A stretch of 64,000 nucleotides of DNA, taken from positions 1 to 64,000 of the forward strand of contig CANRKK010000005.1 in assembly GCA_947631195.1 (NCBI GenBank), in the 5' to 3' direction. The translations under genes were made by a program, and so were the position numbers. The DNA comes from an uncultured Clostridia bacterium (GTDB taxonomy: Bacteria; Bacillota; Clostridia; Christensenellales; Borkfalkiaceae). How positions within the stretch are numbered: position 1 is the first letter of the stretch; each line of letters begins with the position of its first letter. Below the pieces are notes generated by a model, which saw only the letters and a program-made list of their open reading frames with translations, did not search any database and had not been told where the DNA came from. Shown one piece after another: positions 1 to 691 of this stretch.

Positions 1-77
1 GACAGACAGACAGACAGACAGACAGACAGACAGACAGACAGACAGACAGACAGACAGACAGACAGACAGACAGACAG
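1..77 (+). repeat. GACA tetranucleotide tandem repeat inside hsdS
   Basis: Nineteen perfect GACA units (1-76) plus one G, truncated by the window edge, so the full number is unknown. Every forward frame through the array is open and encodes a cyclic Asp-Arg-Gln-Thr repeat. Just after the array only one frame stays open (into the HsdS C-terminal half). The other two stop at TGA 81-83 and TAA 85-87. This is the layout of a slipped-strand switch. The array may also have broken the assembly at this point. Confidence 0.97.
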
Positions 78-691
78 GGCTGATTAAGCTCTTGCAGTAT
101 GTATATGGCGTAGCGTTTGTTAGGTTGGGAGATATCTGCGGAAAAATTGAAAATGTAAAATGGAAAATTGAGAATAGTGAGTATCAATATATCGACTTAA
201 CTTCCGTTGATACGGAAAATCATTCTATTGTCGGAACAACGCGAATCAATAAAGAAAACGCACCGAGCCGTGCGCAACAGAAAGTAAAGAGAGGAGATAT
301 TATTTTCGGGACAACGAGACCGATGCAGAAACGGATTGCTGTGATTGGGGAGAATTACAATAATCAAATTTGCAGTACAGGTTATTGTGTTTTGAGAATA
401 GTAAATCAAGAAGTTTTGCCGCAGTGGGTTTATTATCATCTCACAATACAAAAGTTTTACGATTATGTGGAGAGAAACCAAGAGGGCGCGAGCTATCCTT
501 GTATTTCCGATGAGAAAGTTAAAAGATATATTATTCCTGTTCCGCCCATTGAAGAGCAAAAAAGAATAGTTGAAATTCTTGATAGGTTCGATAAATTATG
601 CAACGATTTATCCGAAGGTCTACCCGCCGAAATCGAAGCAAGACAAAAACAGTACGAATACTATAGGGACAAACTTTTAACATTTAATTGA
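2..691 (+). CDS. hsdS: Type I restriction-modification specificity subunit HsdS, C-terminal part
   Basis: HsdS supplies the two target-recognition domains (TRDs) that set the DNA sequence read by the HsdM/HsdR complex. The frame is open from the window edge through the GACA repeat. It then encodes one TRD, beginning at a VRLGDI segment (residues near 40), and one conserved helical region ending EARQKQYEYYRDKLLTF, a typical HsdS C-terminus. Only about half of a normal 400-residue HsdS lies downstream of the repeat, so the repeat falls where the central spacer between TRD1 and TRD2 is expected. TRD1 and hsdM would lie to the left, outside the window. A TTG at 92 could act as an internal start, but continuity through the repeat is the better reading. 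The neighbouring 4-helix-bundle gene and hsdR complete the locus. Confidence 0.88.
   Translation, partial: TDRQTDRQTDRQTDRQTDRQTDRQTGLIKLLQYVYGVAFVRLGDICGKIENVKWKIENSEYQYIDLTSVDTENHSIVGTTRINKENAPSRAQQKVKRGDIIFGTTRPMQKRIAVIGENYNNQICSTGYCVLRIVNQEVLPQWVYYHLTIQKFYDYVERNQEGASYPCISDEKVKRYIIPVPPIEEQKRIVEILDRFDKLCNDLSEGLPAEIEARQKQYEYYRDKLLTFN

Follow-up and report, generated by a model that had tools for sequence, protein, structure and literature searches.

The 64,000-nucleotide stretch analyzed here, referred to below as the window, derives from an uncultured Clostridia bacterium (GCA_947631195.1, contig CANRKK010000005.1) and opens within an hsdS gene. Its first bases form a perfect GACA array of 19.25 units (100% matches) that is followed by a Methylase_S domain (PF01420, E 5e-20), a gene for a putative four-helix-bundle protein and hsdR (Table 1). 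Frame 2 of hsdS is open from window base 2 to the stop codon at the end of this domain, and the other two frames are closed by TGA and TAA codons next to the array. The length and perfection of this tetranucleotide array exclude an origin by chance.

Table 1. Features at the hsdS locus and upstream of it. L005 denotes a stretch of contig C3; all other coordinates are window positions (contig C5). TRD, target-recognition domain.
Feature	Coordinates	Strand	Contig	Remarks
Tyrosine-recombinase-like ORF	L005 2-337	minus	C3	~5.4 kb before hsdM
TIR-like protein	L005 405-1586		C3	
CD-NTase-like cyclase	L005 2947-4023		C3	
PDC-S01 match	L005 4394-5677		C3	
hsdM	L005 5769-7343		C3	TIGR00497, 726.7 bits
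ORF, 243 aa			C3	between hsdM and hsdS; no match in Pfam, NCBIfam or PADLOC
TRD1 of hsdS	L005 8263-8751		C3	
TRD2 of hsdS	L005 8851-9363		C3	before the array
(GACA)n putative contingency tract, right-hand end	1..77	+	C5	TDRQ in all forward frames
TRD3 and conserved helix (TRD3-CR3) of hsdS, frame 2	78..691	+	C5	TRD match 104-688; stop 689-691
TGA	81..83	+	C5	ends two-TRD HsdS when m = 0 modulo 3 (array of 4m+3 bases)
TAA	85..87	+	C5	ends two-TRD HsdS when m = 2 modulo 3
Four-helix-bundle gene (23S_rRNA_IVP family, PF05635)	732..1097	+	C5	between hsdS and hsdR; same place in L028
hsdR, Type I restriction subunit of EcoR124 kind	1181..4282	+	C5	TIGR00348, 570.3 bits

The array and the joined operon

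Base 1 of the window is base 1 of contig C5, in a genome of 2.34 Mb that was assembled in 81 contigs with 4.34% estimated contamination. The sole other GACA array in this genome occupies the final 77 bp of contig C3 (L005 9385-9461). The array thus takes up exactly 77 bp at each of the two contig ends, where its phase differs, a pattern from which we infer an assembly graph with a word size of 77 bases that encountered a loop. In that case the array would be at least 81 bp long and its full length would lie beyond the assembly; with its middle unassembled, the frame present in the source genome is not fixed by the assembly. The other contig ends gave no confirmation of this word size: a comparison of 44 termini, including 10 that read N, yielded no further pair with such an overlap. 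A search with the pattern backwards offers no control in this case, as reversed GACA is the same repeat.

Taken together, C3 and C5 form a single hsdM-hsdS-hsdR operon in the order found in a contiguous relative, L028, from a genome of the same genus (hsdM, an ORF, hsdS, a four-helix gene and hsdR). The HsdM, HsdR and four-helix proteins of L028 are 90%, 79% and 63% identical to those of the source genome, and its HsdS of 620 aa reads through an in-frame GACA10 between TRD2 and TRD3. The join depends on an unassembled repeat in a fragmented genome with some estimated contamination, and an artefact of assembly or binning would mean that C3 and C5 are not neighbors and that the third TRD belongs to another gene. 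However, the array occurs at these two places only and the joined operon matches the L028 order, so that such an artefact is very improbable. The locus belongs to a Type I restriction-modification system in that HsdM, HsdS and HsdR occur together, on two contigs joined by inference, and an EcoR124_C domain is present. When compared with solved structures only, the nearest relatives of HsdR are EcoR124 HsdR proteins (E about 1e-262) and the best relative of HsdS is EcoR124II (9e-29); judged by this likeness of subunits, the system is of Type IC, or EcoR124-like.

The hsdS start was set at ATG 8143 (L005) by likeness to relatives, whereas the ORF tool gives TTG 8095. As the C3 portion of hsdS holds both TRD1 and TRD2 before the array, the domain in the window is TRD3 and the array almost certainly lies between TRD2 and TRD3. 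The initial annotation had anticipated TRD1 and hsdM to the left, and hsdM, along with an hsdS portion holding two TRDs in frame, was indeed located upstream on C3; its placement of the array at the spacer between TRD1 and TRD2 was discarded on account of these same two TRDs. TRD2 (L005) and the window TRD3, which starts LIKLLQYVYG, are not identical: at an E value of 1e-8, no alignment between them reached 90 residues. The helix GLPAEIEARQKQYEYYRD is common to CR2 and CR3 and CR1 differs, and TRD3-CR3 therefore resembles a duplicate of the distal HsdS half.

Since GACA specifies TDRQ in all three forward frames, the array alone never stops translation. The first base of the array on C3, L005 9385, is also the first base of a codon in the upstream hsdS frame, 414 codons past ATG 8143. 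The array comprises 4m+3 bases, and translation continues into TRD3 only where m = 1 modulo 3, yielding a product of ~650 residues or more; with other array lengths the protein ends within three codons past the array and consists of TRD1-TRD2 and a TDRQ tail. One unit more or less shifts the frame and three units add four residues, as the initial annotation had calculated. Its description of a GACA repeat inside the hsdS frame of a Clostridia-like host, able to shift that frame and with a stop directly after it in each of the other two frames, also holds. The count of at least 19 units is correct insofar as the array is perfect over 19.25 units, but 19 is a floor set by the assembly, both contig ends comprising exactly 77 bp.

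Several other features were noted around the operon. Approximately nine copies of the heptamer AATTCTC span window 1097-1160 and end 20 nt before the hsdR ATG, with GGAGG at 1172-1176; the exact 19-base pattern of this repeat has no other copy in the source genome. The heptamer repeat might serve to adjust the expression of hsdR. At the end of hsdM lies another, related repeat of 7 bases (L005 7342-7370). Upstream of hsdM, L005 405-5680 is a likely defence island made up of the TIR-like, CD-NTase-like and PDC-S01 entries of Table 1, next to the tyrosine-recombinase-like ORF. A recombinase is also one hallmark of inverting (shufflon) hsdS systems, together with an inverted second hsdS and inverted repeats. 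In the distal part of the window (48907-49158), a 111-bp tandem repeat of 2.3 copies (98%) has similar sequence at several contig ends of the genome and perhaps is a dispersed repeat.

Three-TRD genes among related loci

The 80 best of 586 HsdM-related loci in the genome collection were examined, a non-random sample from one HsdM clade, and TRDs were counted with a TRD-plus-helix HMM that was built from three halves and iterated on the 80 loci. Four loci had no TRD, eight had one, and 68 had two or more. Among the last, 36 are uncut two-TRD loci without a counted repeat, five are two-TRD loci with a repeat between TRD1 and TRD2 (L049, L076, L077, L086, L101), three are two-TRD loci close to a contig end, and in six the contig ends within a GACA array 3′ of TRD2. 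Three TRDs were present in 17 of the 80 loci, 14 of which have a tandem repeat at the TRD2/TRD3 junction. The other three (L065, L089, L099) lack a counted repeat and possess a remnant, TDRQ or SKQ, at the same site, as also do L056 and L070 (4.5 units). L043, a two-TRD gene split by N that was counted by script as three-TRD, is excluded from the 17; L029, with interrupted arrays and an N run, is included but does not figure in the frame tests. The 17 loci are of Clostridia where the record title names a group, with some placements presumed.

No counted repeat was found within 200 nt after TRD2 in any of the 41 uncut two-TRD loci. The units observed at the TRD2/TRD3 site are GACA (up to 35.5 copies, in L094), AAGC, GAGCA, ACGAGCA and AG. 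Three TRDs lie in one frame in L028, L097, L066, L056, L070, L089 and L099. In L107 (9015-9254, genome G005) the same GLIKLLQYVYGYAFVRL start comes after an array and no TRD was detected, seemingly a remnant from which TRD3 has been lost.

If the array were instead a TRD1/TRD2 spacer, changes in its length would produce half-subunits in the manner of NgoAV and altered spacing in the manner of EcoR124. Repeats do occur at this position in five of the 80 relatives, although in L101 a stop in the TRD2 frame 3 nt past the array precludes a clean switch. Homopolymers were left out of the census repeats, and L057 and L060, which are within the group of 36, carry G9 between TRD1 and TRD2. Nevertheless, with two TRDs upstream the spacer interpretation is refuted at the present locus unless the C3-C5 join is wrong, and its probability is minimal.

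Signs of switching and the predicted products

Both alternate frames stop within 17 nt past the array in all 12 loci for which this was assessed (11 relatives and the window). As background, both stops fall within 19 nt at 917 of 7910 codon positions (11.6%) in 18 hsdS loci. The alternate-frame stops are suggestive of a switch; the loci are related and do not amount to 12 independent trials. Three of the 11 relatives (L028, L097, L066) were assembled in frame and eight out of frame, a proportion close to the one in three that a free-running tract would give. A start of its own for TRD3, with a Shine-Dalgarno sequence, was absent within 60 nt after the array in all 12 loci, the first such starts being ATG at +65 in L051 and GTG at +124 in L094. 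TTG 92 closely follows the stops in the window and is shared with L028 and L051 only, with L058 and L091 having a TTG at a similar distance. Independent translation of TRD3 is not supported in view of the missing Shine-Dalgarno start near the array and the poor conservation of TTG 92 among the loci.

Tract length differs between close relatives. The array is 18 bp in L070 and at least 29 bp, at a contig end, in L081, the adjoining 400 bp being 100% identical and a span of 783 bp 97.8% identical; the 18-bp array of L056 compares with 62 bp in L224, the flanks being 88% identical. Tract-length switching in nature is judged likely. Loci L056, L070, L089 and L099, which have short tracts, look fixed in frame, and L065 looks fixed out of frame.

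Nine pairs of TRD3 sequences were compared. The three with dS <1.5 gave dN/dS values of 0.031 (L056/L070), 0.133 (L058/L065, both genes out of frame) and 0.079 (L094, out of frame, and L097, in frame). The six remaining pairs were saturated, with pN/pS of 0.14-0.32. The ratios indicate that TRD3 is under purifying selection, although the low values could be due partly to exchange of TRDs with two-TRD genes. TRD3 of L058 is 79% identical to TRD2 of L103, and the window TRD3 is nearest to TRD1 of L041 (51%).

The predicted structure of the three-TRD HsdS of L028 has a mean pLDDT of 73.4 and a pTM of 0.44, and its best structural match is EcoR124 HsdS (7bst_A). The repeat region (residues 384-403) has pLDDT values under 50, and in this model the TDRQ tract probably is disordered. 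A helix at residues 401-413, after the repeat, is of low confidence and its sequence is like that of the N-terminal HsdS helix. A separate model of TRD2-linker-TRD3 was uninformative (mean pLDDT 44). The initial annotation had proposed an EcoR124-like effect on target spacing, which is not upheld: the TDRQ tract is 3′ of the second conserved helix and, in the L028 model, is a low-confidence and probably disordered region.

Overall, the sequence data point to the array as a contingency tract that probably decides whether a two-TRD Type IC HsdS gains TRD3. Slipped-strand changes in unit number would switch cells between short and long forms of HsdS. The short form, TRD1-TRD2 with a TDRQ tail, would methylate and restrict the motif set by TRD1 and TRD2, whereas the long form, TRD1-TRD2-TDRQ linker-TRD3, would add, or swap in, one or more motifs read by TRD3 after the model of three-TRD JHP1422 of Helicobacter pylori, with which two motifs are methylated. 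The frame-off state would be a complete HsdS and no half-subunit would arise. The truncation of HsdS to a half-subunit that originally was proposed is thus replaced by two outcomes, termination after a complete two-TRD HsdS or the appending of TRD3. The repeat is a likely route by which gut Clostridia alter which DNA sites are marked.

Two alternatives to this switch of specificity were weighed. The three-TRD form may be weak or inactive, with TRD3 hindering assembly or competing for HsdM, such that the tract would be an ON/OFF or level switch and TRD3 would read no useful site. The eight of 11 long tracts that are out of frame as assembled and the moderate confidence of the L028 model are compatible with this proposal. 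However, chance alone would leave two frames in three off, the protein sequence of TRD3 is conserved and is up to 79% identical to ordinary HsdS TRDs, one frame spans all three TRDs and a short tract in L056, L070, L089 and L099, and JHP1422, which has three TRDs, is active. An impaired long form therefore is unlikely. Alternatively, TRD3 might be mainly a silent cassette that recombines with TRD1 or TRD2 at shared helices, the repeat being a by-product. CR2 and CR3 do have helix sequence in common and the TRD3s share one sequence pool with the TRD1s and TRD2s, but 14 of 17 three-TRD loci have a repeat exactly at the junction, made of several different units. Moreover, a TRD3 frame that is open across the junction while both other frames are stopped, as in 12 of 12 loci, exceeds the needs of a cassette, and this proposal is very unlikely. 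The chances are about even that TRD3 is used as an added or alternative specificity.

Repeat switches usually turn a methyltransferase on or off. The layout described here should never go off, but would add a domain to a working enzyme, and a commensal population could maintain two or more methylation patterns and restriction barriers with none of its states left undefended. In relatives whose arrays were assembled, some of them cultured isolates by record title (L041, L091, L094, L097), the use of a third TRD by an enzyme designed around two is directly testable.

GACA arrays in other genes and comparison with known systems

GACA arrays were considered as a peculiarity of hsdS, which was rejected given their presence in viral genes and at EcoRI-type methylases in two other genomes of the family. 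TRDs were detected by HMM in four of 80 viral loci with (GACA)8, these being 80 of 109 stretches. The full three-TRD layout is in frame in L200 and out of frame in L224, and the sequences of L181 and L188 break off at the array. Searches with the junction peptide returned partial matches to the conserved helix only from plasmids (five records, each covering at most 33% of the query) and no match from phages.

Arrays in other viral genes include 24 in-frame GACA units inside the matched domain of a reverse transcriptase gene (RVT_1, E 5e-19; L205 2167-3204), in-frame arrays in PAPS-reductase-family phage genes (L199 4560-5810, L197 3461-4501 and many of L170-L249, two of which were tested by Pfam) and one in a C5 cytosine methylase (L206). 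In L191 (1680-4001), the frame of a fused N6 methylase and Methylase_S enters a GACA array near the C-terminus. The arrays of L210 and L248, at 40 and 48 bp, are two units apart with flanks that are 100% and 99.75% identical. Gut phages may commonly use switching by repeats. EcoRI-type adenine methylases (PF13651) of the same bacterial family have GACA arrays near the C-terminus (L166 3760-4893, L168 2-289; L167 by likeness only), and at these loci extra copies of the C-terminal segment are located downstream.

The layout is a recurrent, clean form of putatively repeat-switched Type I specificity. With a probability somewhat below even, it could represent a distinct class of switch, recurrent in Clostridia and on a few viral contigs, in which the enzyme would function at every tract length, would keep its base specificity and would gain or lose a further one, a flexible TDRQ linker letting TRD2 pair with either TRD1 or TRD3. 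The 2020 survey of Atack et al. in FASEB J reportedly deals with Type I systems whose hsdS repeats are able to switch expression or specificity. Among the matches listed in literature searches, which did not extend to the text of that survey, none described by title or abstract a repeat that gates a third TRD.

EcoR124 is the best solved relative of HsdS, HsdR and the modeled L028 protein. Its four-residue repeats form part of the TRD1/TRD2 spacer and determine target spacing, whereas the TDRQ tract is located after TRD2. The PADLOC HsdS model PDLC03126 (690 positions) is matched at 1-456 by the C3 portion of hsdS and at 447-687 by the window domain. The two pieces fill the model nearly end to end and an HsdS of such length is therefore already in a public model, although the name of this model says no more than Type I specificity subunit and implies no switch.

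Approximately 10% of Type I systems are described as carrying repeats that could switch (PMC7394358). A 2025 paper (PMC12429846) credits three-TRD HsdS proteins to the 2020 repeat survey of Atack et al. (FASEB J), and several S subunits in REBASE are stated to be predicted with three TRDs (PMC3936762). In NgoAV of Neisseria gonorrhoeae, a change in a polyG tract fuses hsdS1 and hsdS2 and converts the motif from GCAN8TGC to GCAN7STCA (PMC9577141). The kinship with NgoAV that was suggested initially is valid in principle, a repeat in a Type I hsdS determining by its length whether the downstream TRD is fused and, on the published description, changing the motif. In contrast, the polyG of NgoAV as described is between the first and second TRDs and the short form is half-size, whereas the tetranucleotide array follows a complete two-TRD HsdS. 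JHP1422/JHP1423 (M.Hpy99XV) is reported to methylate two motifs with three TRDs, of which TRD3 alone reads a palindromic motif (PMC3936762). It has three consecutive TRDs, as do L028 and other in-frame relatives. However, TRD2 and TRD3 of JHP1422 are identical and the available account describes no gating repeat, whereas in the present gene TRD2 and TRD3 differ and are separated by the repeat. The layout resembles that of NgoAV moved one domain on and combined with the three-TRD arrangement of JHP1422.
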